This document shows, in pieces, positions 26,701 to 59,275 of a stretch of DNA of 64,000 nt. A program made the translations under genes and the position numbers. Position 1 is the first letter of the stretch. Each line of letters begins with the position of its first letter. The DNA comes from Tubiluchus corallicola. Lineage: Eukaryota; Priapulida; Priapulimorpha; Priapulimorphida; Tubiluchidae. The DNA is taken from the NCBI GenBank assembly GCA_030141605.1, contig JAQGDQ010000025.1, forward strand, positions 478,907 through 542,906. Direction: 5' to 3'. The notes beneath the pieces are model-generated. The model did no database searches, was not told the origin of the DNA, and worked only from the letters and a program-made list of their open reading frames with translations.

Positions 26701-29700
26701 ACATAAAAAATACTAAACAAAGCAAAAATAATCACGACATTGAACCTATATGTTATTTTCTATTTATATACGCAAAATATTTGTTTTGAGCTTGCAGTAG
26801 AATCTTTCTAATATCAACAATAATCAAAAACACTGACTAAGACAACTAGTTGGTCAAGGCTATTTTCTCTCACTGCCAATCACTGAGCAAATCCCAAACT
26901 CCAAATTGCAATTTCCATGTATCAAAAATCACGCCTTACCTGAAGACAACTGACGAGTCAGTTCCGATACCGATAAATCCTTCGGTGAAAGATTTAAATC
27001 AATCGGCGATCCCTCTGGTGAAGGAGGTGATGGTACTGGGGAAATACTAAATGGATCCTCCACCTTACCCGACACTAAAATAAACAATATTAAAAGAACA
27101 AGGCGCTTGTTAGTTGGGAAATTAAAACAAGAAAGTGTTTTTTAATAAATGATATTTTTGAGCGAGTTCGAACTATGCTTGTTTGCGAGCATAAGTGAAC
27201 AAACTTTACCTTTGCTTAGTGAATTACTTATAAAGCAAAAATGCAAAAAGATTAACAAAGAAAAGGTGGATAAATTCTATTTATTCAAGTTTACGAGAAT
27301 CTGAAGAACAAAGAATAACCATTTGCTAAAAAGCTTAGAAAATTACAATTTCTACAACATTTTATGAGTGCAGAAGAAATATAAATGGCAACTTCAACAG
27401 AGTTATCCTGTGAATTTTAACTTGTGGAACGTTTGTTCTTCAGAGAAATCTAAACTTCATTCATATTAAAAGGAATTTTGTCCGACTTGTCCAAGATTCA
27501 TTTTAATTCAGAAAAACTTCAACTTTAATAAATTTATGTGCTATTAAAAAATTTTGATTTTTGAAACTGAACAAATTTTTCACTTAGGAAAACTGGCCTA
27601 ATATCATATTTTTAACATACAATGTAATGTATACTGTGAACAATTACTAAGAGCTCATAATAGTTATCTCAAGAAATAGCAATAATTTACCTAACACAGG
27701 CACTTGCTTAGGTGACAGCGGTATTGTTGGTACTGAAGGTGCAGGAGCATTCACAGTGACTGACTGAAAGGATGATGTTCGTACAGGCTTTGCAGCTAAG
27801 AAGCAACAGTATTTTTTAATTTAAAGAGCATTTTAATTACATTACAATACTTGATACAAATGCCATTACAAAAAGGTGCACCATGACGAAAGCATGTGTA
27901 GCGCAGCGGTTTAATTATTTTGCTTCCTACAGCACTTGTTGCCAGTTTCAAAAAGTCCTTAATAAAGTCGCTAATCACAATAGTAAGGTTTTATAAGAAG
28001 TCCAGTCTATGGACAAAATATTTGATCTGACTATATTAGCAGTACACATACACACTTTTAGAATGATATCATGCCTAAATGGCTTAATAATTACACACAC
28101 TGAAAATTTGTATACTTCAAACCAGAGCCTTGTGCTTTCAGGATGCATGCTCTACCAATTGAGCCACTGACTCAACATAGCAAATCTGGCAAACAAATCT
28201 GACCTAAGATCTCATTCTAGCTAGACACATTCATTCAGAGCTACCTATCCTGTACTAGTGATATATCAATAACTAGTGAGGCATTGACTTTTGTGGCGTC
28301 GATGCTGTTACTTTGTTAAAGTGAATTCATCATAATTATGGGCATCAATGTGAATGAACGCTGGTGTGAATATGCAAACTGTCATGACTCAAGGTGAAGT
28401 TTTAAGTACTTCACGTCATGATCAAATGATTGTGTGAACTCCGTATTAGAAGGGACGTGACAGTTGTGCAAGAGCTGATGACATGTGCACAGAAATGAAA
28501 ATGAAAACTAAATAGCAACAAAAGAGAAAAATGAAGCAAATTCCAAAATCTATTACATACCTGATACTGATCCAACGTTTTCTTCTGTATCATCTAATTC
28601 CATATCTTCATCAACTCTTACAGCACCGTACAGATCATCAGTTGTTGGCGTGTTACCCGGGGAGGGGGCATCGGCACTGGGAGATGGTACTGGACTACTT
28701 GGATCTGGTAAAGTCTTCGTAAGTTCCACCAATTTTCTTTTTAGGTGAAGAACTCTGGTGCCAAAATTTTTGTAAGCCTACAAAATTATTGTGCCAAGAG
28801 TCATTCCATGTTCAAAAAAAGCAATTCAAAAATTAAAGCTGGTTATATTTATCTTTGCTTAAGTGAAGTTTTTACAAGGTGAATAAATTGTATGAATTAG
28901 GTGAAATGCTGGCTATGTAGTTATGAATCCTAGCTCAGTCTGCGAGCTGTAATATGACATTTAATATGTGGTACATGGGAGATATATGGCCCATGTGGCA
29001 GTTTTCAATTTTGCTGTCTGCATCTCCCAACATAAGCTTAAACAATACATATATAAAAATAAAAGTATAAGCTAAATAAGTGTAAAGTATAAGTTTGTGA
29101 AACAGATTTAATATTAATGTTTTTGTACAGCAACAAATTTTAAATAGACAGACTTCAATAACTTAATCTTCACGAAGCTTTGCACCAATTCATTAAGTAC
29201 ACAGATTAATTTATTTGATAGTACATGAAGGGCTCTAGTGTCACCTAAGTCAGCAGAATTTCTTCTGTCGAAAATAATTAAACATAGATGCATTTGAACA
29301 GTTACTTATTAATTTTGACATTCAATTCAATTCACTAATTGGTAACTAGTTACAAAAGGGAGGATGCACAATGAAAAATTGGCCACCAATAACAGCTTCA
29401 GCAATACTACACCTTAATATTTTACTTATATAAGAGTGTTAGTTATGCAAAACTAGCAATAATATCACACATCAATGTGAATTACTGGTGAAGCTGTTTT
29501 AGGTAGCCAGATGAAAAATCAGCTTAATAATAAAACTTCATTTGTAAACATAACAAGTATAAATAAAGCAAAAAACGAATGAATAGGAGACTTACATTTG
29601 CTACAATTTTTGCTTCACTAAGCTGCGTGTCATAGAAAATGTGACCTTGCTCTAGCAACTCGATCATTTGTGTTTGATGAGCAATTTGTTTCTCTAATAG

Positions 29701-32700
29701 AGTCATGTATACTGACAATTTCTTTCCTGTGTCTTCAAACTCTTGTATAAATGTTTTTCCTTCACTGCGATCTAAAATATCAGATTTTAGTTAAACAAAC
29801 GCGCATAATTAAGGTTGTGCCAATTTGATAAAATTTATACTGAATATATTGCACGAATAAAAAACACACTAAAATAGAAATAGATAATAACAGGTCAGAA
29901 ATGCATAAAAAAGCACTTTATTTTCAAACTCACTAATCCTCACAGTCACCCAAAACGAATGTAATTTTGCAACTTTTAGTTGAAAGAAGTTTAATGAAAA
30001 ACTAGCCATTATCTATGAAAAACCACTGAACCAATGAACTACAAAGAGACTGGTACTTTGATTAATTCTAGACACTTAAGAAGTCCAATGCTGAATGTTT
30101 CCATGCAGCTGCAAAATATGGGAGAGTGGTCTATAGAACAAGAAAAAGTCTGACTGATTGACAAAGTTTAAAACAGAGGATGACAGATCATTACATCATT
30201 TAGATCATTACATTAGTGAAGTTTATTGTTCTTGGGACAATAAAGGCTTAATGTAAACTTCAAGATAAGGTAACCATGGAGCAATGAACACTGGGTTATT
30301 TGAATCCACAAAAGAATGTGGAAAGGTTAAATAGCCGGAAAAATTCATTTCGAGAAAGTTAATTACCTTTTAATTCCTTCAGAATTTCGTCATGAGTTGC
30401 ATCTATGCGCAGTGTTGCCAGCTGCTTCCTCTTCAGCTCTTCTTCAGCTTCCATTCGATGGTACAATGCCAGGGATTCAATCAGCTGCTTGGGCTACAAA
30501 ATAATCAAAGTAAAGCACTTAGCACTGTACAATCAATGATTTAATTTGTATAACAAACTCAAGATCATCCAGAGTAAATGATGTCAATAGTTGTGTTTTA
30601 TATACGCGTGTATGCTGGTAATCGATATTTTCCCAAAAAACATGCATCTACAAGGCCAGTGTAAAACTTTCCATGGAATCCGATAAACGGCAGCACCTGC
30701 ACAACATTGGCAATTTCCACGTTCTGATCGAGTGCTCCGTCGCTAATTTATTTACCGGTAATATGTAAATTTTAACTTATTTCACATACCAGTACGTTAA
30801 AATAAATTACAGTAATATTTGTTAATTTTGTGAAGTAAAGTCAAGGTGCGAACATTCTCTGATGTGAAGTATCACAGTATGAGTGTTTGTTCAGTCCTGT
30901 GTATAATGAAGGATCATTTCTTTACATATTCGTATTGTAGACGACTCTTTAGCGACATCTCCCAAAAACATATCGTAAGTATAAGTCGACCCCAAAAATT
31001 TCACCTTAAGATTGCTTCCCAAAAATTCGACTTGTACATAAGTATATACGGTATATTGTAAGTACAATAACAGAAAAACATCCAACTTGAATCAATTACT
31101 CACTTTTTTGTATACAAGCTTGTTATTTTAAATGTAATGCAACCAACATCACCACAGACAAGTCTACAGTTTTATGCTTTAGAATGCATGTACATGTAAA
31201 GATGAAGTTATATTATTGCATATTCCTCAACCAGCTGTTTACAGTAATTTTACACTTTACAGAAAAGCAAATTACCTGAAATTCTGCAAGAATCTTTGGA
31301 TTGACAGCTGGCATAGCAGCTTTTTTCACTGCAAATAGAAAAACGATATCATTTTTATCAATGTGCAAAGAAAATAAACATATAATATTAATTAATTAGT
31401 TAGATGACTATGATTGCCATTCAATATTAACCTTAGCCTTATTTTATCAAATACTTTGTCATTCAACAGTTTAACCTGATTAACAGAAATTTTAGTCCAT
31501 GAAAGGAGCAGCTTTTCTTACAAATGACTGTTAATGGTGAAGTGGAACTTACACAATATTCCTCGCATCTCTTGCACAGCATCACCATCAACAACGTTTC
31601 TCTCGTCCCAGATGCGCAGAATCCTTTCTATTTTAGGTCTTAAAGAAGCATCTCTATAAATAATTATGTAAATATATCACAAATTGTCTCCCAAGACTTT
31701 AGATAGTATGAAAACGATGAAATGAATCATTAGTCCTAGGCTGAATACTGCACAATCTAAGTAATTGAAAAAATGCCCTCTCTGGCAATTACCTGATCTT
31801 GACATGTATAATAATTTTAATTCTGAGATATTTACACAACAATAAGTTCAGCTTTAATACACAAACAAGAAAAAAAGGATAGAGGTGCGAGTCAGTAAAA
31901 TAGTACTCCAAGCATTAAAGGTTTACTACTAAACTCAGCAGATTGTCTTTTTCAATTCACTGTTGATTATTACACTAATCTTCACAAAATAATGGGAGCT
32001 GTCATTTGCTGAAGTTTCTCAGCCAAAAATTCTGTAAAACTCTACTTCTAAGTCAGGTTCACAGACATATTTGTTAATCATGTTTTCTATTGATTTTAAA
32101 GGTACAAGACCAATCAAAGTGACAACATACCTGACGAATACGATTGCGTCTTTGATCACAGGTATAAACGCTGCTTTGAATTGCGGAGCTTTCTTCTTTT
32201 TACAGTTTTGTATAACATCGTTAGCAACGTAGAAAAGAGTGAGTCTGTGTTGAAGTTTTGCTACGATAGGAATGAATGAAAAACAACAATGTTGTCAGCG
32301 TTAGTTCTAATAAGTTAAGCATCACGAACAGCCAAATAAACAGGTAATGATAACATTAATTCTTTTTAATATTTTAAAAAAAATGACCACTAATTTAAAT
32401 TTTTGTCAGAAATGATGAAATGCTTGTTAATAGATAACCACCAGTACTTTGTCAAATAAGCTAACATTGGTGATCGACCTATCAGTCGCACGTGATCCAC
32501 AAGTGATTACCACAGCCTATTTACTAAGGTACCAACTCACAGTAGCAAAGTCAAAAATGCATAATGTACTGATGCTTTAAAACAAAAGCTCTTAAAAAGT
32601 TTAAATACTCCACATATAAACTTTAAAAATGGAATAAAACTAACGGAAAGTAGAATTTAGGAAAAAGGAAAATTTGTTTTTAATGAGCAAATAGGATAAA

Positions 32701-36924: not shown

Positions 36925-36989
36925 GTAGGTGTACAAATTACTACAATATAATAGTAATATAACTATGATATATGTTCTATTTTTTGCAG
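36925..36989 (+). other. Probable 65-bp intron in the CHSY 5' UTR
   Basis: GGCCCCG|GTAGGTGT at 36924/36925 is a good donor. A pyrimidine-rich TTCTATTTTTTGCAG ends at 36989 as acceptor. Splicing would remove the upstream in-frame ATGs and leave the ATG at 37043 as the first that gives a type II membrane start. This is predicted only. Confidence 0.45.
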
Positions 36990-37042
36990 ATCTTTGGTTA
37001 GTCACATTTAGCAGGATATTAAATTACTCAGATGACGTCATT

Positions 37043-38687
37043 ATGCAGATTTGGACAATTCTGACATTCATCATTTTCCTTGGATGTGGTTATTACATTG
37101 GTGTCAATTTACGTCGTAACGTATCCTGCCCAAAGAATAATGTACTGCCCAGTGTCAAGCCTGCACCTACGTATGAGAACCTGCCAAGTGAAAAAAGGTT
37201 ACTGTTTGTTGGTGTCATGACAGCAGCCAAATTTCTAGACACTAGGGCAGCAACAGTATATAAAACATGGGGACAGACAATTCCTGGAAAAGTGGCTTTT
37301 TTCTCGAGTGAAACATCTGTGACCTCATTCGACATTCCCGTGGTGGCACTGAAGGGCGTCACCGACACGTACCCTCCCCAGAAGAAGTCGTTTATGATGC
37401 TTAAGTTCATGTATGACAATTATATAGACAAGTTTGAATGGTTTATGCGTGCAGATGACGATGTATACATTCGCGGTGACAAAATGGAGACTTTTCTGCG
37501 GTCCATAAATAGTAGCAAGCCATTGTTCATGGGCCAGTCGGGTCTTGGCAAGAAGGAGGAACTTGGAAAGTTAGGTATGAACATTGCCTCAGATGCCTAA
37601 CATTATCAGTGGGGCCTTTTGACAATTTGTTTTGAAAATTAATAAGAGTAATAGTGATAACATACAATGGCACATTCATTTTAGATTGCACAACTACAGT
37701 TGATACAACTAAATTTGTGCTTGTGATATGTTTATTCATTTGTCATTTATGAAATTCGTAATTAAAAATGGTGATTGTAAACTAGCATTTGCATTCTAAA
37801 GGTGATTAATCTACAATTTGCAACAGCACTAGCAGTGAAGCTGTTTTAACTGAAGACTAACTGGTAGTCAAGAGGAACTAACATATCAAAGCATTTAATA
37901 ACAATTACAGTACCACTTCTTAAAATGAGCTAAAATTATATTTATACAGACATACCTCGTTACCTCGTTATAACCCCCCCCCCCCATTTATAATGCAACC
38001 TTGCTTCATGCCCAAATTTTTATCAGTGTCTCTATTTGCACAGACATGACATGTATTTATTAATGCACCTTGCTATAATGGCAAATTTGCTTAACACCAA
38101 CTTTTTTGCAGTCCCAAAGTAGGCGGTATAAAGAGGTTTGACTGTAGTTAGAATTTGTTGATTTTGTTATTAACATAATTATGGCTGTGTTTTTGGTATT
38201 ACGACTAAGGTTTGGCAGCTGATGAAAATTTCTGCATGGGAGGCCCAGGAATGATATTCAGTAGGGAAACACTAAGACGAATGGCTCCTCACATTCAACA
38301 CTGCCTTACTCATCTTTATTCTTTTCACGAGGATGTGGAAATTGGACGTTGCGTGCGACAGTTTGCCAATGTGTCATGTACTTGGACGTATGAGGTGTGC
38401 ATACATAGTTATCTCTTAGAACATTCTGTTAAAACTAGAATTTGAAACTTGATTCAGGGGTGGGATTCTAATATCTGTATAACTTTGATTAGCTAGTCTA
38501 AATGCAATGGTAAAAGTTCATCTTGTACTCAAAAAAGCTTTCGTCTCTTTTCTGGGTCATATTTGAGTCATGCAGGTTTGACTCTTCATCTAGATGTAAG
38601 GGTTTATTGATTTATGTTTGCTCAGTGATACAAGCTTCAAAGTTTTTCTTTTTTGATCTCAAAGCAAACTTTAAATAATGACTTTTA

Positions 38688-38764
<77 letters not shown>

Positions 38765-41328
38765 CACTCTTGTACATTGTATTTTTACATGCTTGTGCCG
38801 TTTAGCGACTACACTGTGCAAATAAATCTGCTGTAAATTGCACAAATACTGTATAGCTGATAAGAATGATTACTTTGTCGTAAAGTGAAATGTGATGCAT
38901 TTGTACTTGAATTTAGCTAAAATAACTGCCATGTTTGCAAAAAAGATTGACAGCTTTTAATTCTGATGAAGCCTGAGGCATTTATAGTGATCTTATATTG
39001 ATTTTCTAGCTCATTCAAATGGCTAGCCATATAATAAAATTCAAGGATTCATTTGTAGGCATTAACATAACTGTGCAAAAACAGAAATAATTACCTGTTT
39101 TATTTGTGCTGTTTTTTTATGTAGATGCTGAATATTTTACACCACAACACAAGCGACAAGGCACATGAGAAAGAATCGTACATTGGAAATTTGTACCTGC
39201 CCGATGTAGTGCAAGCTACGACATTGCATCCATTTAAGGTTATTCTTGCATGTTTTTTACAGTGTTATTATTAGTGTAATAGTGTTCAACATTTTTTCTT
39301 GAATGTTTTACAGTGCTTCTACTACCATTTCGTGTTGAAAGTAACACTAATTGTTTAACTGCCGGAAGAACAACCATGTCAGACAAATCTTATTGTGGAC
39401 AGTCTTGGCAAGACCAGCACATTCATCAAAGCTAATCTTGTCGGACTAGACATGAGACACTGGATTGGCAGAGGTGTCTTTGCCACATTTTGGATGTGAA
39501 TGTATCCTCCCTCTACCAGGTAAATCCCCATAATCAGTATGGCAGATGAAATCATCCAGACCAAATATGGAACTGACCCTGGCAGTCATTAATCCATTCA
39601 CTGATCAGCTTTGGTGCTTAAGTTTGGTTGCTAAGCACATACTGTGACCACTGTTCTAATTATTCTAACAAAAAATTAGTTTATTCAGGATTATAGCAAC
39701 TGCAACTTAATATTTGTTTTAGGTGTTTGCATTGTTTTATTTGCTATTAACTTTACCATTGTGTAACGAAATGCCAAAAATATATTCCTAGGCTGAGTTC
39801 ATATAAACCATTGTTTGTTGATCTGTAGGTTACGCCGCACATGTTCCGAGCACACGCTTTTTTCTATGCATTACAAACTCGTGAATTACGTTTCAAAACA
39901 CTTCAACTAATGCGTGAGGTTAGAGATATGAACATGTTGCTTAAAGAGAATGACAGAAGCGTCAGTCATGCAATGGGCTTGCGACCAGAATTGAACAAAT
40001 CGCCAACAGACCATGTCAAAGATTTGATTTCATGGGATTTCATCAGCCGTAGCATATTCAGTGAAAAAGACCCCAATCCAAAACGTGGTTTAGAGGTACA
40101 ACTTAAACTTGTATTAGAGGACATTATAATGCAGTTTATGTTCGGTATTAATAAGGTATCTCGTGAACGCGGTCGTGTAATAGATTTCAAGGAAATATTG
40201 TATGGGTATCATCGGCACAATCCACTGCACGGTTCGGATTGGATTCTTGATATACTAATGACCTATAAGAAATACCAAGGTCGAAAAATGACTGTGCCAG
40301 TGAGAAAACATGCTTATTTGCAGCAGACTTTCACTAAAATAGAGTTCATGGAAGAAACGGGTAGTGATGAGAAAGCAGGCAAAATGAAAAGTTCCACTCC
40401 AAAATCGAAAGTCTTGCAGCTTTTAGAAGATAATATAGGCTGGAACAATGTGGATAGTGAAAGCTCTGTATCGTTTGTGTCCCACTCTTATGGGAATAAA
40501 GTTGCTAGTAAAATTGTGCATTTCATTCTCCCACTGGCCGGGCGGTTTAAGGTCTTCCAACGCTTCATGCAAAATTTTGAGAAAGTGTGTCTGAAAACAG
40601 ATGATCCTGTGAAACTTGTCGTGATTCTTTTCTTTCACAGCACTGATGATAAAACAGATGAAACGATAAAATTAGTGAAAAATTTGGGTGCTAAATATTC
40701 AAATCACGATCTCAAAGTGGTTCAAGCAAAGGGTCCATTTTCGCGAGCTTTAGCACTAGAAATAGGTGCTAGGTATTATCCAAACAATGCTCTACTGTTC
40801 TTTGTAGACGTTGACATGTATTTCACTCAGGCATTCGTCCAAAGAGTACGACTTAACACTATTCAGCATCGTCAAGTTTATTATCCCATTGTGTTCTCCC
40901 AGTTTGATCCAGTGACTGTTTACGGTAATGCCGAATTGAGTGTGCCATCCAACTATCTCGACGTCACTCGTGACAGTGGCTATTGGCGTCAGTTTGGTTA
41001 CGGTATAGCCAGCCTTTACAACAGCGATTTGAGATTAGTCGGCGGGATGGACACGGGTATCATTGGCTGGGGTAAAGAGGATGTAGACTTATTTAACAAA
41101 TTTGTGAATAGCAATATAACGATATTCCGCGCGCCTGATCCAGGTATAGTTCATGTCTTTCATACTATCGATTGTGATCCTGCCTTAGAGCAAGCTCAAC
41201 TTGAAATGTGTCGCGGTACAAGAGCTTCCACATACGGTTCCACTTGGGTGGTAGCCGAGCAGCTTTATGCAAACTCCAAACTGCTGAACTCTGAACTTAG
41301 TGCAAAAACAGAGCCACCGGAAAGGTGA
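37043..41328 (+). CDS. CHSY1: Chondroitin sulfate synthase (CHSY1/CHSY3 family)
   Basis: Four coding exons: 37043-37574, 38210-38394, 39125-39238, 39829-41328, giving 2331 nt and 776 aa (human CHSY1 has 802). The chosen ATG gives MQIWTILTFIIFLGCGYYIG, a type II Golgi signal anchor, followed by a lumenal stem. The enzyme alternately adds GlcA and GalNAc to polymerise chondroitin. The N-terminal beta1,3-glucuronyltransferase-like domain has the metal-binding D138-D139-D140 in MRADDDVYIRGD, then ENFCMGGPGMIFSRETLRRM and HEDVEIGRCVR. The C-terminal beta1,4-GalNAc-transferase domain has D604-V-D606 in FFVDVDMYFTQAF and G690-W-G-K-E-D-V-D-L, then RASTYGST as in vertebrate CHSYs. Both catalytic motifs are intact, so an active bifunctional polymerase is expected. 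An earlier in-frame ATG exists at 36929 but would bury the anchor behind an extra hydrophobic leader. A Tigger-like MITE ends 65 bp before exon 2. The symbol marks the family; CHSY1 versus CHSY3 cannot be told apart in an invertebrate. Confidence 0.95.
37947..38144 (+). mobile_element. Tigger/pogo-like MITE, copy 3
   Basis: This 198-bp element begins CAGACATACCTCGTTA and ends GAGGTTTGACTG, with TA on both sides (37945-37946, 38145-38146). It has a poly-C run at about 37974-37985. It lies in CHSY intron 1, ending 65 bp upstream of the exon 2 acceptor. The left terminus is diverged from the other copies and resembles the Tigger terminus. Confidence 0.85.
38691..38761. repeat. (TA)35 microsatellite
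   Basis: A pure TA run of 71 bases in CHSY intron 2. Confidence 0.95.
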
Positions 41329-43520: not shown

Positions 43521-45885
43521 ACTTTAAATCACTATTTAGACGTTAGCATACTAATTATATGACATGATCAACAATTAAGAAGACAAGTTCATTTTACCAT
43601 TTAATCACTGCATGTCATACATGACAATTATAAGATACCTGCTTCACTAATCTAATTGGTATATTGCATTAACATTACTATTATTCATTTCTCGAAACTG
43701 CATTACATTCGGAAAGCTAGTCAACCATCAGCAAGTTGCTATGTTTACATATTGATTGATCATTTAATGACAGCTACCATTCAGCACAATTTGGCACACA
43801 CTACGATTTCTTGTGATAATACTGATAGTTTAAAGTTAGGTCTACTCTGACCCACCTAGCTAAGTAAATAAAACAAGCCTTGGAATAACACACAATCCTT
43901 TGACGTTACGAGTACGACAATCACGTAAATTATTTGCGAACACCAAAAATGTCATACTTATCATTATTATATATGCTAATTATCACAGAAAGCCCGAGGA
44001 AATAATGTATTATTGAGATATTTTTATTACATGAGTATAATTAAATACTCCTTATTGTACCTTACTCTATTGTACAAATGTACATATTCAAAAACATTTA
44101 AAATTTCACTTTTGCAACTGAACAGATAGCTATACGGGGTAGATAATTTTGTATTTACAAGATGATTTAGATCTTGTAATGTTTTACATAATGATTACAC
44201 ATTGGAGTTCAGATATAGAACCAGGCAAGTAAGATACATAAAGCTACAGTTTATTTTGACTAGATATGATGAATTTGTATGCTCCAGGGAGTACATAGCA
44301 AACTTAACTAAGTGGCAATTACAATATTTGCAATGAATTTTCAAAGGCAATGATTTGAAGACAATTTCAAATTTATAACACACATGACATAAAAAAAAGA
44401 CAGCAAAAGTCAACCCCAAGTTTGAAGTTAAAATCATTTAACAGAAAAGCACACAACAAAGACGTAATTTTTTAAGTGCAGAAATGAGATAGATGAACGC
44501 CAATGCAATTGCGTTGTACAATATGCAAGTACATATTTATCATCAATTGAACAATTTCTAAGTTACAAACTCCAATGTGAGTCATGTTTAAATTTTAAAT
44601 ATATTGAAAAATAGTTCAAAAGCCTCTACCTAAAGTGAAGAAAATGTACAATAAGAAGACTGGAGGATTATCTTATAGTTAAAAGGTATGCAGGCACATC
44701 TTGTTATTTTTTCAATTTGAACTACTATTCGATGCAGCATGATTTGTAGTGATAGTCATGTTTGTCAAAGCAGAAATGATTGTTGTTGAGTTAAAATCAT
44801 TTTACTTTTCATTACAAATATTAAGTAAGATTATAACGTGGCTGTATTAACAAAGATGAAATTACAATATTTTTAAATAAAAGGAATTTAATTATAAAAG
44901 CCACATAGACACACAGTTACAAATTATTTATTTTTACGTAACCCCTTTGTTACATACGAGACTTTTCGCGATAATATGACCTCTGCACCAACCATTCATA
45001 AAACTTCCATCTGTCTGTCTCTTCTCTAAAAACAGAGTTATTGAAAAAAATCAATCGTGTTTTTTAAACAGTTTGTTGCATTTGTTACACTATTCTAAGT
45101 AACTTAACTATATGTATGTATGTGTTTAATACACGATCTTGAAATTCTGGCGATTTCCATTTGTCTGAGAGTAACACTGGAAAATAGAATTCTTGTACAA
45201 ACATAGTCGCAAAATACTTATGAATACTTGGGCACTTACATCTTTTAGGCTCTAAGCTACTAGGCTACAAATATTTATATCTTTTCCTGTTAAGGTCAGA
45301 TATCTTCACTGGATATCTAATTCCACAGAGTCAGTGGTTACAATCAGTATTTTGCACCATAAAACAGAACCGAATTTACCAGGAGCCAAAATGCGGTGTG
45401 CCATAATTCAGGAAAGGTGTGTGTAAAAACAAGCAGAACATTGATTGCATGAACAGATATGCACATGTTGCAAAGTTTTAAAGCAAGTAGGCAATAACAC
45501 AGCACACACACTATGCAAAATAATCTGTCTGCAACAGCTTGTCCAAAATAGATTTTTGCTCATCTACCAGCTCGATAAATGCTATGTTACCAACACTGTT
45601 GTACAACATATTTAATTTGCTGTCTCAGACAAACTGATCCTGCTCTCGTGTGCCAGCTAGAAACAAACATTTATATTAGACCGATCATGCATTGATTTCA
45701 GTCATGAGGTTTTTCATCGTGTCCGACTAGTATAAAAAATGAGGATAAATGCAATGTCTCATGTACGAATACGCAAATCTGTCAAATGAAAAATCTGTGA
45801 TTAATTGGGAGGTGCTCCATATTTTTCTGATACCATAAATGAAGGCTAGGAATAGCAAGAAACACTTTGCAAATGCAGGGAATCC
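43521..45885. other. Spacer and probable 3' UTR of the CCPG1-like gene
   Basis: AT-rich sequence between two convergent genes. TTTATT words (AATAAA on the minus strand) occur at about 44024 and 44930 and could end the minus-strand transcript. No coding exon is supported. Confidence 0.5.
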
Positions 45886-48800
45886 CTACCTGAGTTTTTT
45901 CCGTTCTTCTGCTCTAGCAAACAGCCAATTATCACCTTTGTGCCGTTGCGCTACTCTGTCCTGTGCTCGTTCAAACACCCATTCACCGCCATGATGGAAA
46001 TCACCAGAATCTCTCTACATCAATAAAAACGGTTGGTTTTGTACAACTGATTGAGAAGAAAATGAAGAAAAATCTATCAGTAAGGTCACATAGCATTATC
46101 ACTTAGTGAGGCATAGCAGACTATGCAGCGAAATTTAACACGTTACCATTCATCGCTAACCTTTTCAGTAGCTTTAGTAAAGGTTTGCCTTCGTTTTTCA
46201 GGTGTAGCAACAAAAAAAAATTAAAACTAACATTGTTTTATACTGACAACTTATTAATACATGTAGTTTCTCATTATAATTTACATACAGTGACACGAGA
46301 AATACTGTACCTCTTGTGCATAAAACTTTAATTACTGTTATCTTTTATTCATCAGAGTGTCACCTATGATCTTGCTGATCTCGTGTAAGCTAGTAGTGTT
46401 TAAAACACAGTTGTAAAAAGTCTTAGCTAACAAACATATCAGCATAGGTATTCTGATTCTCACAAAACTATTTATATTTATATTTCTGATGTGTAAAGTG
46501 ATGAAAAAATTCCATAAAGAGAACCAGTTTTAAACTCGAGGCAGCTTGTTTCAAAAAATGAAGCGTTTGGTTTTTCCCTGTATTAGCTAGAAACTGCTTC
46601 TGAGTGGTTTTATTTACATATTTACCTCAGGATGTTTACCATATTCAGAAAGGATGTATAAATAACATGTGTGTCCAAACACGACTATGACATCTCTACT
46701 GGTTCAACGCCTTAAAGAATTTTCCTAAGTTCCAGTCCCGCCATAAGCACCTACATTGAGTAGGTACTACCAATGAATGTTGGATCCTGAGTAGCAGACT
46801 ACTAAATCATATAAAAGTAAATTGGGCTATACTGACTAAAATAACTTACCTTGTACAGGTAAGATACCTTTAGAGATAAGACACCTGTCAAGTAACTATT
46901 AAGATGTAGAGTAACATATGTATGAACTTACATATAATTGCTGCCAATCTAGAAAACCACCTTTCAGCTGCTTTAGCTGCCATTTGTAGAGATAGTGTTT
47001 GCATCCACATAGTGGCAATGGTACAGTATCAGGGCAATTCCACCACCTTTTCTGGCAGGCCACCCAAGCGTAATCCTGTGGATAACTTGGAAGTCTACCA
47101 TCATTCGCAAACTTTCGTAAAGAGGTCAGATGACTATTGAAATGCTTTCTGGCACTCTTTCTGTGTGACGTGCTCCACTCCAACGAAGCAATCCGGTCGG
47201 TTAAAATACGAATGTGTTTCTTTGCATCAAGCTCAATCTCAGTGGTATTAATGTAGATTGCTTGCTGGTTTTTCCTGCATCTAAAAAATAATGGGGCAGG
47301 AGAAGGTCCTACAAATTCCGTTTTCAGCCTCTGTTCTTGTTTACGCTTTCTGGGATGAAGATGCTCTCTTCTTGAGGTTCTAGCAGTGGCAGCGCCATTT
47401 TGCGGGTGAGCATTTTCACGTTCATTTTTCGCACTTTGTGAGTTACTAAAACTATCCCAGGTAAAGTCAAATTCATCAAAGTCCCATTGCTTAATGTTTT
47501 CCCAACTGGTTTCTAAATCAGCAGAAACCTGAAATTAAAATTACAGTGAATTCAATACAAAAAGCAAAAGCACAAAACACCCGCAAAAACATTTAAAAAT
47601 AGTTATATAAAGATATCCTATTTCTAGATGTCCTATAACAATTGATACAGAATTTGTATACGAACAGTAACGTTAAACCAAATAATTATTTATAGCCTTA
47701 ATTTCAAAACTGTTGGTCTATGGTTATGACATTGGAACTTCAAACATGTGACATATGAAATTCAAACATTCCCAGTTCAAATTTAGTCTCAGTTTTTCAT
47801 ATATCCTTTTTTTTGATTAAGTTTAAATAAAAAAAATGCAAAATTTAAAGTTCAATCCAATGTAAGCTTATGTCTAGTACTACAAAAGCTTTTCAAAGCT
47901 ATTAAATTAAGCTATCAAACATGCTGCACTAAATTTTAAATTAGGCATCTCACAAAAATTTAACATCAAATCTCTGGCAATTTTCTACTTTAATCAACAG
48001 CTGCTTATTCATTGATCATTTAAAAACAAAGTTTGCTGATTAATTATTTAAAAACAAAAAAGAACAGTGAACTACAACCATTCGAACATATCCAAAAAGC
48101 TACCAAAACTTCCTGATTACTCTAAATTGAGGTAATAAATATTAAAATGAGGGATTATGCTAAAAAAATACCTTTTTTAGTTTTTCTTTCATCTTGTCAA
48201 TGTAATGCTGATGATTGTCCTTGAGATTTTGTCCTACTGCAGAAACCTGCGACCAGGCTGAACGTAGATGACCCATGACACTTTCAGCAAACCCCTGGCC
48301 AGCTAAAACAGTAAAATGTACAATGATTAGCCAAGACATGGCAACTTTTTAGACATTCTAGCATTACTTGGTTCAACCTTAGCACACAAAACAGTTCAAT
48401 ATTATGGTATAGCATGTAGAAGATGTGCCATTAAAAGCAATTACTTTTAAAAACCATTAAAAGGAACAAAATAACTAAAATACACACAAAACCAAACTTC
48501 CGGAAAGTAGCAAAATTTTTAGTAACATGAAAAAATAAAGGAATTTAAACAAACACAGAAACCCTCTCTACTAAAGCAGAAACAATAGCACAAAGCAAAA
48601 TTTATGCTGACTTAACAAGCATCCTATAGAGTCAATGCCTTAGACCAGTACAAATATCACCTTTTACGATACTAAAACCTTTTATTCATAATTAAACACT
48701 TACAAAACTCTAAGTCATCTAAATTTTCGAGTTGATCTTTCAGAAGTTGCTGGACGCTACGAAGCATGCTTGTAAAGTGAGCAACATTTTCTAAGATGTT

Positions 48801-51800
48801 TTCCTGCCACTCCGATTCTCTGATCGACTGCCAGATGCTGGACAAGCTCTCTACTGTGACATTCTGCAACTGTGAAAGGTGCGACCAGAATTTATCTATC
48901 ATATCGTCTGTGCCATTACACGCTCTTGACGTGCTAAATGAATACCTGAAATGATGACAACTCATATGAATTAAAGGTGGCAACAACACTGTAGTGCAGT
49001 GATGCAGTGACACATACCACTATATCTACTGCTGTGACGTCATTTTTTCTACTTTTTAGACGATCCAAACAAAATCACTGGGCCCTAAAATCTACAATAA
49101 CAAAGCCACCTTAGTGCAACTGAAAAGAATGTATGTAAGGTGCAACAATACAAACTCTGTTGAGGATCTACCGTGTTGTAGAGGAAATTAAATATCTCGG
49201 AGAAAAACAGAAACCTGGTTTAGGTGAAACATCCGCCTGACATTACTTCTGTAATCATAAAGCAGCAAAATTTTTGTGTACTTGGTTTGCCTATATATGA
49301 TACCGATACTTCACTTTTGCATAAGTTGCTAAAATCAACGATGGTTCAAAGTCATGCTTGGCCAAAAAAGGCTGGTTTTTAAGTAGTGCAATGCAATGGA
49401 AGCACTGGTCTCAATGTAACAGTCTGGCTGTAAATTAACAGTTTTTGTAGCAATAATGATAGGATATTATTCCCACTCAAAATAATCAAAGCAATTATTT
49501 TCTGCTTACATTTGCCCCAAGATAAGCAGTTTTTTCGGTCTTTGTAAAAACCTTTCCATTCGGTCTCCGGACACCATGTAATCAAGGCAGGTGGAACAGT
49601 TGACATCTTTTAGTGATAACTCCGCTACAGTCAATGATGGCTGGGATGAGCCATATATGTGTTCCTCCTTTATTAGTCCCCACACCTCTTCCTCTAGTAG
49701 AACGGTCTTTGCAAGTTTCACGCACAGTCTCAAGCATTTTCTCTCGCACTCACTCAGCTTCCCTGAAAGGAAAATGATTACAACCCATGAAAAAGCTAAA
49801 CATAAATTACAATTTAATCTAAAATTTATTAGTGAAGCAAAATTAAATCATAGTATCATAAAAGTAAAAAAAAGTGGAGTGCTAATAGGATTGTGAGTAA
49901 AACCAATTCAATTGCTAAAAAACAGCAAAAGGCTGCAAAATTTCTAACAGTTTTAACACTCTGTGTGAATTTTGCTGAAAAAGAAAACTCTAGTTCACAT
50001 TCGAATAATTTTTTCAAAAATAGTTTTAAAAGTTGGCCTTCAAAAAGCTAACTGTTAGATGACTATGACATGGCTACAATTTTATTGCAAGACAAGAGTG
50101 AGTAATGTCATAATATGTCATACATGTATTTATATAAATGAGAATTACACAAACATTTGAAAAACAGCAACACAGTAACTACAGCACTGTGAATGGATAC
50201 CGACTGCTGTCGCACCTAGCAAGCAGTTTCCAAGCCCACTAACAGTAGTTTTGTTTCTATCATATTTGTTCAGTTCTTATCGAGTATTCTTTTGTGTATT
50301 TGCTCAGCACCATTTGGTGATGCACCGTGGACATAGCAAAAAATCGCATAACATATGAAAGAGATGGATACGTGGCATCATTTTGTGAGATTTACATATG
50401 TACTAGCACAAACATGCTCTATGTTGAAGGATTTTACTGTTAATTGTGTGATTTACCTTTTTTAAATGCTTGACTCTCCAGTTTGGCATTGAAATCAGTA
50501 GCTTTAGTTTTTAAGTCATCTTTTGCATCTGGTACTGAATAGTCATCATCATTGTCCTCATCCTCCTCTTCATCATCGTCCTCATCCTCATCATCATCAT
50601 CATCGTCACTGACCTCGTCTTCAAAAGAATGATTAGTTACTAGATCAAAGTCAATGTCCTCATCGTCATCATCATCATCACTTTCATCATAACTGTTGTC
50701 TTTGTCATCAAACCGAGTACCTGTCAGAGGGTCAAAGGCAAATCTGTCGTCTTGTGAGACCATCTGATTACCATGTACATCATCACTGTCATGAAGCAGA
50801 GAATCAGTTAGCAGATTAAAATCAGAGACATCAATTTTCAATAGCGAGTCAGGTTGCTTGTCAACCATTTTGTCTTCAATGTCCTCATCATCAAAAAGAG
50901 GATCAAGCAGAGGATCAAAACCAGGTACATCATTTTTCAACAGGAAGTCAGGCTCCTTTTCATCCAAATTATTGTCTAATTCCTCAACATCAAAGAGGGG
51001 ATCGGTTAGAGGATTAAAACTGGACACATCACTTTTCAGCAGGACATCAGACGCTTTGTCATCCAAATTAATGTCTAAGTAGTCCTCAATATCAAAAAGG
51101 GGGTCAGTTAAAGGGTCGAAATAAGAAAAGTCACTTTTCAAATCAAAATCAGATTCTTGTTTAAGAAAGCTGGCACTGGAATCTTCACCAAAAACTATCC
51201 CCTTGCCCACTGTACAGTCTGAAACATGTGGATGTTCAAAAAGATGAACACTTTGGTCTTCACTAATGTCTTCATCTTTATCAACAAATAAAGACTCCAT
51301 TGAAGCATCAGAATAAATGTTACCTTCTTTTTTCAGAGTATCTGGTACTCCAACAGCCAGTTCTTCGTTGATGTTTACGAGTTTGTCGCCATCTGTCACT
51401 GGTGCACTACAATCAGTATCACTGGTTCTTACCAAAGGATTGATTACATTACCATATGTACTTTCTGTGTCGTCTTTGACACATTTCTGATCATCCAGAT
51501 AAACATTCGAGCTGTCTAATCGAGTTTTCAATAAAGTAACATCAGCATCAGAACTAACGTGATCGCCTGCATTTTCCAATGGCACAAAACTAGTTCCTAT
51601 GCCTGAGGCTTTTTCATTGCTGTCAAGATCAACGCCATTACTGGCAACATGGCCAGTACGAGTAGCAATCTCTTCAAACACGTTAGTTTCATCTACATCT
51701 GGTAAAGTGTCCGAATTAACTGTCGGATTTTTCACCAATTTTTCTTGAATCAAAACATTCAATTTCTTCACTTCTTCAGTCAAGATATTTCTCAACTGTT

Positions 51801-54800
51801 GATTTTCGACTTTTACATCTTGCAGATTGTTCCTAATCTTATTTACCATGTTTCTCTGTTTCCTAATCTGCCTACTTTGTTGTTTGTCACGCTGTTGAAA
51901 AGCGGCTATCTTGTCTTCAACTTTTCCTGCGTGCGATAACAACAGTTCCTGATATTCGAGCTGCATTTTCATCAATTTTAATCTTTCTTTTTCTATTTCC
52001 AAGCTGACACTCTTATCAAGTTCATGTGAGACATCTTCCGGTGATGATTTCCCATGTTGTAAACTTTTTTCCAACAAAGACCACTCATAGCTAGTCAAAT
52101 CTAAAAATAAAATACAACAAAAACACCCTGTTAAATCATAGCATAATAAAATTATAAATTCATGATTTGGGCAGTGAGCAAGAATAGTTCTGTAGAACAT
52201 ACTTTAAGAAACAATGGAGACACAATGCACAATGCTCCACAAGGTACAAAACGTGTGCCTTGTCCTTTAATTACTCTAAGATTACATACAAACTACCCAA
52301 ACGATTATAAACGGAATCATAGATGTTTAATAATGTTTTCATTCTCTTATTAATAGATAATTCCGTCTATAACCTTTGTTTCATTAGCATTTACATACAA
52401 ACATCTCTTATTTATACCAAGTACAAGTTGCCATAACTTCAAATTGTTTATTGCCATAATTATATAGTTTATTACAATAAATGTAGTTTAAATGAGAAAA
52501 CAAAATAATAATTGTAGTATTTAGTCATCACGCTTACAATTACTTACCAATTAATTTAACTATAATTTGCGTCAAAACAGCTGCTGCTCCAAACAATATA
52601 AGAAGTGCGGTAATAAGCACACAAAGCAAGACTAGGATATTGAACATTCGACTTCTTTGGGTCGTACTTCTTCTCGACTTGTTACCTAAAAATTAATCAA
52701 AAATTTTTGCCTAGATTTAAATTGCTGTTTAATGTAGTAAAGTCCTTGTTCTGAAAGTGTAACCATTTGAAATTTTAAACTAATCTATTTAAGTAATCCT
52801 ACCTTGTTGGGTGTTGCTGTCACTTTCATCTGGTGCTGCCCTCTGAGAGGGCACTTCAGCAGATGTCTGCCTATGATGTAGTAACGACTCTTCTAAGTTT
52901 TCAGCAGCATCAGGAATCTCGTGATCATGACATCTAGAGTCGTCAGCTGTCACTTCTTTCGGTGCATTCTCTACCATGGGTTCGTCGTTAATTTCAAAGC
53001 TGGAACTGCTGCTGCCAGCGTCACTTTCCACATCAGCATCTTGGCTCTCATTAACAAAACCTGCAAGAAAATGTTATAGCAATGACGATAACCAACAACT
53101 GTACAAAACCAACTAATTAAAATGAGGGTGCAATAATACCACCCAATCATTTATAACAAATACAACTACAATGACAGTATCTCAAAAAATGGCATTGTGT
53201 TTACATTCAAATAGATTTTAATAATTTTGAATACCTACGAAGTGGAAAACTTCATTACAAAGGAAGATTGAAAAAATGTTCTGCAATTATAGGAACTTAT
53301 TAAGGCAACACCATGAATTCTCGATACAAACAGATGGGTAACTGCCTCTCTGCTTGCAATGTGTGTACATCCAGCTTGATATATTCTTATTGTGGTAATT
53401 TTGAAAAATAAACGAAACTAAACTAAACGAACAAAAGAGTTATTAAAAGGAGAACTGTGCAAATATTAAGCCTGAAAGGAGCAAAGTTTATTACAAAATT
53501 ATGCGACATATTTCTGCAAAACACTAACAACTAAGTTGTCAATAGTATGTCTTTCACGTGTTCAAGTAATTCTTTTAGTTGATGGATTGATCAGATTCAA
53601 AGCAGGGTTCCCACAGAATTATAAAATAAATTTCCCTGACCAATATTGATTTTCCGTGACCAAGAAAAGCAAAAATTGCATTACCAGTATTGATATTCAA
53701 ACCTTTTTGTGCATGGACATTCATACGTATACTGATATATAATGTGTCGGCCAATCATTATTTTTGGAACAGAAATCAAAACTGGGAGCCTGCCATAGCA
53801 AAATTTTATTTGAACACGAATCACTAAAAAATGTTTGGAAAAATATTGGTTCATGTCGATTATTTTTGAAACACTTTCCAATTCCCCTGACTTTCACCCC
53901 ATTTTCATCGTTTTCCCTGACTTTTTACCAAATTATCTTTTTCTTTGACATTTTCATGACTATCCAGGATAGTCTGTATTTTCAAGGATTTTCCAAGATT
54001 TTCCCTGACCCTGGAAACCCTGCAAAGGATTTTTTGTAGTTTTTTTTCACATGAAAAGCAAATCCTAGTGACTTTATTTACACAATTATTAAAAAATTTC
54101 CAAGAACACGTCACACAAATTCTTTCCTTCAAAACAATTACAGCAAGCTAAAAGACATTATATATTACTAGACTTGCAATACAATTTATTCTTCAACTGA
54201 AATTAAATAATTTGTTATTAAATTAAACTTTTTAAAAATTGGCTAAACCATCTATCCTAGAGGTATGGCTGAAGGAATGCTTGACTGGACTCCACAAATA
54301 ATTATTAATTTAACAGTGTAATTGGTCCAACCCTGTAATACAGCACATCAAAGCTTCCTCAACTTGTGTGAATATAGGAAGTTAATCTGTAAGTTCAATA
54401 TATTCCTCTTAGGAGCATTCCAATCCTAGTAAGCACTTTAGGAACTAAAATATTCTCAATAAAAACAAAACTTATCCTGTGTCACTAACAGTGTATTTAA
54501 AACTAATTAACCAAAACTGTACAGTGAAAAAATAAAGCATACTTTGTTAGATACCTAGAAACTATGAAATGCCATAATTATAATGCAATAGTTTGAATTC
54601 TGACATTATTTTAATATTTTGTTTTGAACTTGATGACCTTGCATCATTAAAGTAAAACATTCTTCACATGCAGTAGCAATACTATCAATAACACTTTAAC
54701 TGTGAGTACATAACCTTCATGAAATAATGAGCTAATTCTCCCATAGATGGCAGCAGGAGCTAACACACTAAGGAATAGTTAGTTCATTCATTTTTATCAG

Positions 54801-57800
54801 CGTTCATAGCTTATGGGAAAGAAATCTACATCTTGCAACAAAGAAAAACATTTGTAAAAAGTAAAAGTTTGTCAGATTTATCTTTAATTTACAAAACACA
54901 ATTTAAAACATGTACATTACTAACACACCACAAGTTCTTACTGCTCATATAGTTAAGTTATATAAACGTAAGAGAGGGTAACTACATCGGTGCCTATCTA
55001 CTTGCTTTCGGAGCTACGTAAAAGACCAGTGTGTCTTCCTCGCTCTGGGAAAAGTCCCCGGATCCAGGGTAGAAAGTACCGAGCTGTAACTGGCTTCAGC
55101 TTGATTAAAGAGCTGCTTAAGGCTGTGAAGCCCTTTTCCTGAGGGCAGAGCTGCAGCGTAGTCAGGTGTTCATCAAAGCACAGTTATGCAAGTGGCACAT
55201 TAAGTGCTAACATGATGGGGCTTATTCAAAAGACACCAAACTTTTGAACAACTGCAAAGTGGCAAGTGTGAACATATGAACAGGTAGGGCAGAAACAAAT
55301 TGATGTTTCAAACGTAAAACAAACTATATTTTGCAGGAATCTAATCCAAATACCAAAACTAATGCATTATGGGATCATATCAGCTACACGGAATGCATTA
55401 TTCCTAGTGAGCTTTTTATCAAACAGTCAAAGTACGGATCTGTAAGTGAAACTAGAAATGACCTAATAGTATTTCTGTAGTAAGCACAAGATTGCAGAAT
55501 TAGGCTAAATCAATAAGAAGCTAATTATAAATAAGCTATTTTTATATTAAAGTTGCCAAAACAGATAAACTCTTTTTAGTAAATCCAAGAGGGATTAGTT
55601 ACAAATACTAACAACATGCAAATATTTAGTAGATCATTTCTGGTTCTGCTGAAAGATCTGTACACTGACTGACTGATAATAAATATAGTAAGACTTATTC
55701 TTCCATATCGCTGGCCGTAAATGATAATATTGTGGTAATACTGAAAGTAAACCATTTAAAACAAGAATATATTCACTTTTAAAATCTCTCAAGTAACTTC
55801 ACTATTATTATTATTAATATTATTAATAAAAGTGATTTTTTTAAAAGCAATTGCAATAAAGACACCTGCAATTGAAAATGTTTAAATGAAGAAAAACCAA
55901 TCACTTAAAACTGGAAATCAGTTTAAAAAAGCTAGATGTCTGTAGTTGTTTAATTATTGTAAATAAAAAAACAATTATCAATGCTGTACAAAGGTGTATT
56001 ACAACAGTTTTTTGTTTCCTGCTGAAATAGGCAACTACTTTAATAACATTTAACAGTACTTTTCTTGTGAATCACAATTTGAGTGCAGGTGGTGTGTAAT
56101 TTGTGTCTATTGTCTAAGATGTGTTTCTCATGTATGTTGCTACTACCATTGTACAACTTTATTGCACGAACTGCACTAACTAAGAGCACTATTTGAGAAG
56201 AAATCTACATTAGTTCAATGACAAAAGCAAAATGATGCAACTCACCAGCGGTTGACGGTGCAGAATTTGTCAAGAAGCTATACTGGGAGCCTGAAGCTGA
56301 GGAAGACGCTAACAATACATCAACTGATTCTCCACAATCCAGTCTGTTCTCAGGCGTAAGCTTTACAAAATCCGATTCTATCAAACAAGCAAATTTCTGT
56401 TTAAATTTTGAAAATAAAAAAGGTTTATTTTCACGTCAAAATTTATTGCTCACACATGTCATTATAATTGCATGCACATTTTGCTTTTCTTTACAGCAAA
56501 GGAAAACACTTAATAAATAAAGCTTAAAAAAATTCGTCTTGAAATTTTGTATCACTTAAATACTGTCTTATTGCATAAAGATGTTGTGTCAGCAGTAAAT
56601 TTAAACTCCTGCGACGATCATTAGGCGCAGCCATTTTAACAGCAAGTCACTTAAAACAAGTTTAGATAACATTGAGCAAAGTTTGAAAAATAACCAGAGC
56701 ACCAGTTCCACATTCATCATTAACTAAGCAAAAGTTTAAATTTTTAAATTACTGTATATCGTCAGCCAATATTATTAAAATGAATAAGATGAGAAATATG
56801 ATCAATAATGCATTTCTTGGTGAATCAGTGGTGCACACTGGGATCGGCAAGGCAGTGCCGTTTTATCAGGTGGCATGTACATTTTAAATTATTAAGAATT
56901 ATCTGTTTCGATTACATAAGTCTTTCAAACAGTTAGGCGTAAAGCTAAGTTATCTTACTTTGTATGGAAGTGCTTTAGCATATACCTTAAAATTCCTTTT
57001 CTTTCCCTTTTTGTGTTATTTTGTAAAACTGAGGCAAAAACATATAATGCATATATAAATTCAAATGTATCACATGCTTTTATCGGGCCATAATAACATT
57101 TTTAAATCACAATTACTACCAGTATTTTTAGAGTTGGCACACTATGCCGACAAAAACTAATAATATGATGGTTATTCTAAATAAAAACTTGATAAGCAAA
57201 CGTGTTGATGACCACCCGGAAAATCTCTGAGCGATTTTATTTACCATACTGCTCCTGGCTATTTACCTTATTGGAGGAGGATGTACACACATCCATACTT
57301 GACTAAGACACCTCTGCTGGTTCAGTGTCTCATCTTAGTCCTAAAATGATCATTAGAAATGAGCTAGGCCAAGGTCTTGCCACAACAATCTGCCAGCCCG
57401 CTAAATGCCAGATGTTGGCTAGCAGGTGCAAACTAGTACAACAGATAAATGAACAAAAAAATTATAATTGTGAATCTGGACTTACTGTTTGGTACCAGCG
57501 GTTGATAATCTGCATCATTGGTTACGATTTTATCTATAATTACTATTACTACTACGTGTCTCATCACTATCATGTGAACAGTAAATTACAGAAAAAATCT
57601 TCGAGTCCAGCCTGAACTAGGAGGCCTAATAAATGCTAAAACTACCACAAAATGGCACATATGCTCGAACTGCACGTAATGAACATGTACATAATATTAT
57701 TACTTATAATTATTAAGGCAATTATACACATTGCAGCCCTTCAGATAAACATCTTTTATAACCACACGTTTTTTAGTAGCATATTTAGATATAATAGGTA

Positions 57801-59275
57801 GCTAGATTTTTAATTCTAGGTATTTAAGAAAATTACCTCCCGATTCACTATCACCAGTTTCTTCGGCTGCAATGTCAGCTTTTGTTTCACCACTATTAGT
57901 TGTTTCTGTGGGTGTCATTTGTGTTATATCTTCATCACAAAGGCTCTCTCCTAAACTCAGAACAATGTAGAATCAACCATACAGTCCTTTACATGTTGCC
58001 CTTATTCTAATATTAAACTTTATAATATACTGCAGTTTTACAGTGTACACAAATAACTATGATAATATAGTGCAAAAATTCAATGAAGACGTGCAGAAAT
58101 TGCAAACGTTCTATACTTAGAATTGTGAATACCTCTATAAAGACATAATAAAATGAATAGTAGTAAGCTATAAAGGTGCATGTAAACTTACTGTTTACCA
58201 ATTTGGTTACAGGATGACTGTATCTTACTATAAACAATTTTAAAGTATAAGAAATATATATATATATATATATATATATATCTTATAATTTAAAGTGTTT
58301 ATATATATATACTTTTGCATGCTATATATATATACTCAAATGATACTATATGGGTAATACTATAATTGTTTGAGTAAGTATAATTATGGCGAATTTCACT
58401 AAGCTTTACAACATATTAAATATGTTGTTAAATGAAGACATACTTGTAAAAACCAAAATGCATAATGCAAAAATACTAAACAGCATATGTGAACTTTCTT
58501 TGGATAATAGTAAATATTTGGATACCTGTAACTGCCTGAAAATTGACTAGTTCAGCTTCACGTGACATGGGTTCCTGTGACAATGAGCCTGAAAAACAAG
58601 GTACAGATTGCATGGTTCCACTTCCTGCTTTGCTTTCATTCCCACTTTTTTCACCCTGAAAAAATAACATTTAAGCTTAACTGGCTATGCCTATTCTGTA
58701 TTAACGTAAACATTTAAACTTGTAGTAGCTTGCAATGCCTAGCACAAGGGCACAATTAGCTTTGGAGCTCCCAAGTGCTGACTGGTCTACATGCTTTACT
58801 AGTAAAATGATACATGTAACGACTGCCTAGCAGCAACACACATCTGCAAAGAAATTCGCTAGTTTTGCAAATGCTGTGTAAAACCAACATGTGAAAATTA
58901 ATAGCTATTTGAAATAATATGAATTAATTTGCTAACTTTTATGTGCTTTCAAGTGTAAGACAAGTTAAGGAAAGCATTTTAGATTTGAGAACTCTTGCCT
59001 AAAGTTTTTACGCAAAAATATTCTTTAGATAAGCAAAGGGTAGTTCACAATCTCGATTATCAGATATAGTATTACAAAGTCAGAGATCACAAAAATCTTA
59101 CGTTAGACTCCTCAACGAGAACCCATTCACCATGTGAATTTTTGTCAGAAGAGTATTTCACTACACCAAGTGGATCAAGGTGAATGGAATCTGTGACATC
59201 CTCCCTGTCTGCATCATCTGGCTGAGAAAAAGGGTCGAGAGTTTGCAAGCAAACGAACTCTTCTTGTTTATCCAT
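45886..59275 (-). CDS. CCPG1: CCPG1/PBXIP1-family single-pass ER membrane protein, candidate ER-phagy receptor
   Basis: Twelve coding exons on the minus strand: 59275-59102, 58655-58526, 57950-57837, 56377-56246, 53060-52803, 52685-52548, 52100-50457, 49762-49510, 48945-48704, 48302-48172, 47528-46932, 46014-45886. The total is 3942 nt, giving 1313 aa, with phases closing exactly. The N-terminal half is acidic and Ser-rich, predicted cytosolic. It has W51-V-L-V54 in GEWVLVEES (LIR candidate, compare GWTVIS in human CCPG1 and SWVLAGS in PBXIP1), DEDITQMTP (D109-M113) and ESDFVKLTPE (D142-L146), both like the FIP200-binding FIR of CCPG1 (DSDIVTLEPP), and GSQYSF (170-174, human SSQYTF). A basic patch (NKSRRSTTQRSR) precedes one transmembrane helix at about 286-312. 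The predicted lumenal half has a coiled coil (about 330-405), F-[DN]-P-L-x-D-P-L-F repeats (about 636-780), an Asp/Glu tract (about 786-840), helical exons with Cys and Trp, and a C-terminus carrying two W-x-F-x-R-A motifs. By analogy it would tether ER to the autophagy machinery; the lumenal half has no clear vertebrate counterpart, so PBXIP1-like is the alternative. Confidence 0.78.
47710..47830 (+). repeat. tRNA-derived SINE-like copy C
   Basis: A degenerate B-box AGTTCAAATTT (47774-47784) is followed by AGTCTCAGTTTTTCATATATCC and a TTTTGATTAAGTTTAA body, matching copy B at 17146-17260. It lies in an intron of the CCPG1-like gene. Confidence 0.5.
53603..54022. mobile_element. CAGGGTT-terminus DNA element
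   Basis: It begins CAGGGTTCCCA and ends CTGGAAACCCTG, short inverted termini. CAAAG occurs on both sides (53598-53602 and 54023-54027), a possible 5-bp duplication. The interior repeats TTCCCTGACTTT-type words several times. It is 420 bp and non-coding, in the large intron between CCPG1-like exons 4 and 5. The superfamily is undecided. Confidence 0.6.
54975..55190. other. G+C-rich island inside a CCPG1-like intron, nature unknown
   Basis: About 200 bases near 50% G+C stand in a roughly 33% background. On the minus strand a 60-codon frame without ATG is open (ending GLLRSSESK and stop). On either strand short stems are possible, for instance GGCTTCA with TGAAGCC. It could be an unannotated exon, a structured RNA, or the remnant of an inserted gene. 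I cannot choose between them. Confidence 0.4.
56525..57003 (+). repeat. Dispersed repeat, copy 1 (pairs with 63261-63715)
   Basis: It shares CGTCTTGAAATTTTGTATCAC, CTGTCTTATTGCA, AAGTTTAGATAAC and the CTATCAGGTGGCA-like segment in the same order with the copy near the window end. Identity is moderate. It has no coding frame and no clear termini, so the class is unknown. Confidence 0.7.
58254..58281. repeat. (AT)n microsatellite
   Basis: About 14 AT dinucleotides in an intron of the CCPG1-like gene, with further short TATATA runs up to 58333. Confidence 0.9.

Follow-up and report, generated by a model that had tools for sequence, protein, structure and literature searches.

The analysed window, a stretch of 64,000 nucleotides from Tubiluchus corallicola, carries on its minus strand a gene of 13 exons that runs from 59275 to 44950 and encodes a protein of 1337 amino acids (Table 1). 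In this predicted model, built from the DNA, 12 of 12 introns show GT-AG borders and all exons join in one frame; an in-frame stop lies 18 bases upstream of the ATG at 59275. The interval given in the original prediction, 56246-59275, covers exons 1-4 only and leaves out the transmembrane helix encoded in exon 6. The length of 1313 residues given there probably stems from reading through the last donor to an overlapping TAG, while splicing at this donor leads to 1337 residues; both ends of the gene product are possible.

Table 1. Exons and protein features of the CCPG1-like gene; positions refer to the window.
Feature	Position	Strand	Basis or remark
Exon 1 (aa 1-58)	59102..59275	-	open frame, upstream in-frame stop, GT donor
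LIR-like GEWVLVEES (W51, V54), aa 49-57, exon 1	59105..59131	-	fits acidic-W-x-x-V
Exon 2 (aa 59-102)	58526..58655	-	GT-AG, frame maintained
Exon 3 (aa 102-140), phase 1-1	57837..57950	-	gene model
FIR-like DEDITQMTP (I110), aa 107-115, exon 3	57910..57936	-	Met at last hydrophobic position
Exon 4 (aa 140-184), phase 1-1	56246..56377	-	gene model
FIR2-like ESDFVKLTPE (D142, F143, L146), aa 140-149, exon 4	56349..56377	-	first base of the E codon in exon 3
GSQYSF, aa 169-174, exon 4, counterpart of SSQYTF	56274..56291	-	
Exon 5 (aa 184-270), acidic, Ser-rich	52803..53060	-	gene model
Exon 6 (aa 270-316), basic flank RRSTTQRSR and transmembrane helix	52548..52685	-	gene model, hydropathy
Predicted transmembrane helix, aa about 283-311	52561..52647	-	sole strong hydropathy peak, 3.06 over 19 residues
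Exon 7 (aa 316-864), acidic repeats preceded by a coiled-coil-like stretch (by reading)	50457..52100	-	gene model
Five FDPLTDPLFD-type acidic repeats of about 33 aa (aa 643 to about 783), followed by a D/E run	50698..51120	-	
Exon 8 (aa 864-948)	49510..49762	-	gene model
Exon 9 (aa 948-1029)	48704..48945	-	gene model
Exon 10 (aa 1029-1072), opens CCPG1-resembling stretch	48172..48302	-	gene model, shuffles, decoys
Exon 11 (aa 1073-1271)	46932..47528	-	gene model
Exon 12 (aa 1272-1313)	45890..46014	-	gene model
Exon 13 (aa 1313-1337) and stop	44950..45025	-	gene model

Exons 3 and 4 share the same phase, both start with Gly-Glu-Ser (Gly and Glu split with the preceding exon) and carry DEDITQMTP and ESDFVKLTP, respectively, near their starts. 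Copying of an exon would be a natural reading of this part of the gene.

Genomic neighbourhood

Intron 4 harbours, in antisense orientation, a full-length match to RNase MRP RNA (54988-55237, plus strand; Rfam RF00030, 113 bits, model positions 1-266). Upstream of the start codon, three CACGTG boxes are present at 59941, 59947 and 60087, that is at a distance of 0.67-0.81 kb, compared with a window average of about 0.3 per 1.5 kb; we take them to resemble core sites of the TFEB/MITF type. Among elements of the unfolded protein response, the upstream region contains a single GACGTG core and neither ERSE, ERSE-II nor a full UPRE.

Pfam matches were obtained for nine of 20 neighbouring open reading frames picked by eye, which by reading represent seven genes: RASGRF-type (two frames), ankyrin/FEM1-like (two frames), CHSY-type, CID/RPRD-like, PARG, FMN reductase and OSBPL1-like. 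The RPRD2 and FEM1 labels are tentative. The human RASGRF, CHSY, RPRD2 and FEM1 genes, corresponding to four of the seven neighbours, reside on 1q/5q/15q/19p, like CCPG1 (15q) and PBXIP1 (1q), a pattern from which PARG and OSBPL1A depart; synteny with CCPG1/PBXIP1 is therefore a lead only. The chondroitin synthase gene occupies 36929-41328 on the plus strand (Pfam CHGN, E 2e-144, for the frame 39829-41325, to which an upstream frame was joined by reading). The RPRD2-like gene, likewise recognized by reading, spans 23749-32294 on the minus strand and combines a CID frame (32019-32294) with a proline-rich frame lacking a Pfam match (23749-25170). The OSBPL1-like gene is an intronless plus-strand frame of 1009 codons (L030:9854-10000 and L031:1-2880); the 960 residues scanned contain ankyrin repeats together with a PH and an oxysterol-binding domain.

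Predicted topology and protein layout

The N-terminal region (aa 1-282) is acidic, with 21% D+E against 7% K+R, and S, E, D and T together make up 43% of its residues. It is followed by a basic stretch, the transmembrane helix, a coiled-coil-like stretch recognized by reading, the acidic repeats, a run of D/E and approximately 470 further residues. According to the positive-inside rule, the charges flanking the helix predict a type II protein with cytosolic N-terminus and luminal C-terminus. Hydropathy and flank charges thus point to the single-pass layout of CCPG1, in which an acidic cytosolic N-terminus precedes a long luminal C-terminal part. The repeats, starting at residues 643, 677, 710, 743 and 771, would face the lumen, and the portion C-terminal of the helix contains 14 cysteines and five N-glycosylation sequons. 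The AlphaFold2 single-sequence model of exon 11 reached a mean pLDDT of 44 and was therefore too poor for a fold search.

LIR, FIR and SGSQYSF motifs

All four peptides on which the original prediction was founded are indeed present: they are read from the minus strand, and the open exons that encode them have GT-AG borders. By sequence, EWVLV (aa 50-54) is a canonical W-type LIR, located upstream of the FIR-like motifs. ESDFVKL (aa 140-146) agrees at every position with the published FIR consensus (PMC7946963, PMC7615515), and DEDITQM (aa 107-113) departs from it only at the last position, where Met replaces L/I/V. SGSQYSF (aa 168-174) matches SSSQYTF of CCPG1, a motif that in the human protein follows FIR2 and precedes the transmembrane helix. 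FIR2 of human CCPG1 (SDIVTL) is its major FIP200 site. The distance between LIR and FIR2 is 92 residues in both proteins (W51-F143 here, W14-I106 in human CCPG1). PMC7946963 also describes phosphorylation of human CCPG1 at Ser104 as strengthening FIR2; Ser141, immediately before Asp142, holds the position of human Ser104, so that the same phospho-switch may exist in Tubiluchus.

The claim that the motifs follow each other in the same order as in CCPG1 holds for LIR, FIR2-like motif and SGSQYSF, but not for the first FIR-like motif, whose equivalence to FIR1 is not supported. DEDITQM is separated from the LIR by 59 residues instead of 10, ends in Met, ranks third as a match for published FIR1, whose best match lies elsewhere, and is not the site at which the profile alignment places FIR1. 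Its assignment as FIR1 was consequently rejected; within about 10 residues past the LIR there is no FIR-like motif. DEDITQM is tied as the second-best site for the human FIR2 13-mer, and in sequence terms it reads better as a diverged copy of FIR2 than as FIR1.

Short motifs such as these may arise fortuitously where a disordered stretch is long, acidic and rich in Ser/Thr; the protein could then be unrelated to autophagy. The composition of the N-terminal region given above favours such motifs, which were moreover chosen post hoc, and both the published LIR hexamer CGWTVI and FIR1 miss the claimed sites, the best match of the former not lying at W51. The bare FIR core, too, occurs at chance level in the N-terminus (four seen against 2.8 expected, P 0.30, 5000 shuffles). 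Against chance stand the shuffle tests and decoys. For a W-LIR with two stricter FIRs downstream, Met being permitted, P is 0.0006 (5000 shuffles); when only L/I/V are permitted, the state observed is a W-LIR with one or more stricter FIRs downstream, and P is 0.0026 (20000 shuffles). The published FIR2 13-mer of human CCPG1 matches best at aa 138-150 (P 0.023, 1500 shuffles) and SSSQYTF at aa 168-174, with a score of 27 that was reached in none of 1500 shuffles, and 0 of 35 decoy chunks scored as high as either match. These P values are optimistic because the motifs were chosen after the sequence had been seen. The SGSQYSF match is beyond chance and the FIR2 match modestly so, and we consider a purely fortuitous resemblance highly improbable.

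Relationship to CCPG1 and PBXIP1

In whole-protein comparison with human CCPG1 and PBXIP1, neither blastp nor phmmer nor hhalign yielded a significant match. The C-terminal luminal domain common to CCPG1 and PBXIP1 is not detectable in the Tubiluchus protein. A stretch at about aa 1041-1134 resembles about residues 486-575 of CCPG1 (score attained in 1 of 300 shuffles and 0 of 35 decoys), yet hhalign assigns it a probability of 3%. In Pfam, which may lack a CCPG1 model, the whole protein gave two matches with E about 0.06, both below the cut-off. Sequence searches of the PDB returned no match for the N-terminal motif stretch and one for the C-terminus (E 0.53), taken as chance, and a search of viral contigs with exon 11 found no relative.

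Among known proteins, vertebrate CCPG1 shares the predicted type II arrangement, the acidic disordered N-terminus, the order of W-LIR, FIR2 and SSQYTF and a long luminal domain. In contrast to CCPG1, the Tubiluchus protein has no FIR1 beside the LIR, adds a FIR-like motif in an exon of its own and five luminal acidic repeats, and shows no recognizable counterpart of the CCPG1 C-terminal domain. PBXIP1/HPIP likewise is a membrane protein that combines a coiled coil with a W close to its N-terminus; however, when N-terminus, lumen and C-terminus were compared, none of these three segments gave a match beyond shuffles, and PBXIP1 was rejected as a nearer match than CCPG1. Atg39 of budding yeast can be set beside the protein by description, a functional likeness only: according to a review (PMC9126229), its cytosolic N-terminus carries a LIR and an Atg11-binding motif and its C-terminus is luminal.

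The lack of significant whole-protein similarity and of the shared C-terminal domain would also be expected of an unrelated protostome type II coiled-coil protein of the ER or Golgi that gained LIR and FIR independently and works in the same manner in spite of a separate origin. LIR and FIR are short and arise easily, as illustrated by the chance-level occurrence of the bare FIR core. Convergence on these two motifs nevertheless leaves three features unexplained, namely SGSQYSF, the equal spacing of 92 residues and the helical similarity in the lumen, and we regard an independent origin as unlikely. Homology to CCPG1/PBXIP1 is probable on the basis of the sequence, albeit not provable.

Host partners, copy number and lineage

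The partners expected of an ER-phagy receptor of this type, FIP200 (Claw domain) and ATG8, are present in the host. In the assembly (343.5 Mb, 2344 contigs) the Claw was first picked up as two Pfam matches below the cut-off on one contig; three joined exons then matched human RB1CC1 in the PDB (E 3.2e-34), with 55 of 89 residues identical to human. PMC7946963 names four FIR-docking residues as belonging to the set required for binding of FIRs, and all four are kept. Exons of the ATG8 family exceeded the cut-off on six contigs (10 of 13 matches).

PBXIP1 is not known to be an ER-phagy receptor, and the Tubiluchus protein could similarly be a CCPG1/PBXIP1 homologue with an ancestral role as scaffold or in trafficking, its motifs being degenerate and non-binding. 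The Met-ended, displaced first FIR-like motif is in line with such a role, which is difficult to reconcile with a W-LIR and a FIR2-like motif that keep all consensus positions and a Claw that keeps its four docking residues; we judge it quite improbable.

A second copy of the gene was not found in the assembly: all seven matches to aa 1-441 and all six to aa 864-1337, the two regions covered by the search, were the gene's own exons, although weak paralogues could escape such a search. The apparent presence as a single copy fits a gene that predates the duplication into CCPG1 and PBXIP1. One match above cut-off was found for let-7 (57 of 56891 candidates scored) and seven on two contigs for mir-2 (60 of 81612 candidates scored), both numbers being lower bounds. 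The presence of the two microRNAs fits a protostome host, and the degree of identity of the Claw to that of human argues against a vertebrate one. A protostome host would make the dating of the dual-binding design to before the vertebrates stronger than in the original prediction.

Proposed function and evolutionary implications

Taken together, the sequence suggests that the gene encodes a CCPG1-like protein and probably an ER-phagy receptor. The reading as a receptor equipped with LIR and FIR is partly supported, by predicted topology, motif order, W-LIR, FIR2-like motif, SGSQYSF, apparent single copy and host partners, but not with regard to the first FIR as FIR1. We assign a probability of roughly 0.6 to a type II ER protein that works like CCPG1 and in all likelihood corresponds, in protostomes, to the CCPG1/PBXIP1 ancestor. 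Following the model for CCPG1, in which FIP200 and ATG8 are recruited and luminal cargo is bound (PMC5791736; PMC12005454), the acidic disordered cytosolic N-terminus would bind ATG8 through the LIR around W51, and its FIR2-like motif (residues 140-149), possibly aided by the weaker copy at 107-115, would engage the FIP200 Claw. On the other side of the membrane, luminal cargo would be held by the coiled-coil stretch, the repeats and the helical tail, and the ER pieces holding it would be delivered to autophagosomes. Much of the luminal part would have diverged from that of the CCPG1/PBXIP1 ancestor, and one may speculate that the acidic repeats bind calcium or basic luminal cargo.

A review describes CCPG1 as vertebrate-specific (PMC9126229). 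Among the matches listed in a literature search that excluded most subscription journals, no paper dealt with an invertebrate CCPG1; some invertebrate proteins may already bear this name through automatic annotation. An apparently single-copy protostome gene with most of the CCPG1 motifs indicates that the receptor design may predate the vertebrates. Rather tentatively, at somewhat less than even odds, we propose that a CCPG1-type receptor with LIR and FIR2 goes back to the ancestor shared by protostomes and deuterostomes, that the number of FIRs changed later, an exon of phase 1-1 being copied in the lineage studied here and FIR1 being gained beside the LIR in vertebrates, and that acidic repeats were introduced as the luminal side was rebuilt into a cargo holder specific to this lineage.

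If this is true, the coupling of ER cargo to FIP200 and ATG8 goes back to the bilaterian ancestor, and animals without the redundancy of CCPG1 and PBXIP1 would become available for genetics. Constrained parts of the receptor (LIR, FIR2, SQYTF) could be distinguished from those that are not (FIR1, C-terminal domain), and SQYTF, to which the literature consulted ascribes no function, would gain the status of a candidate functional site.
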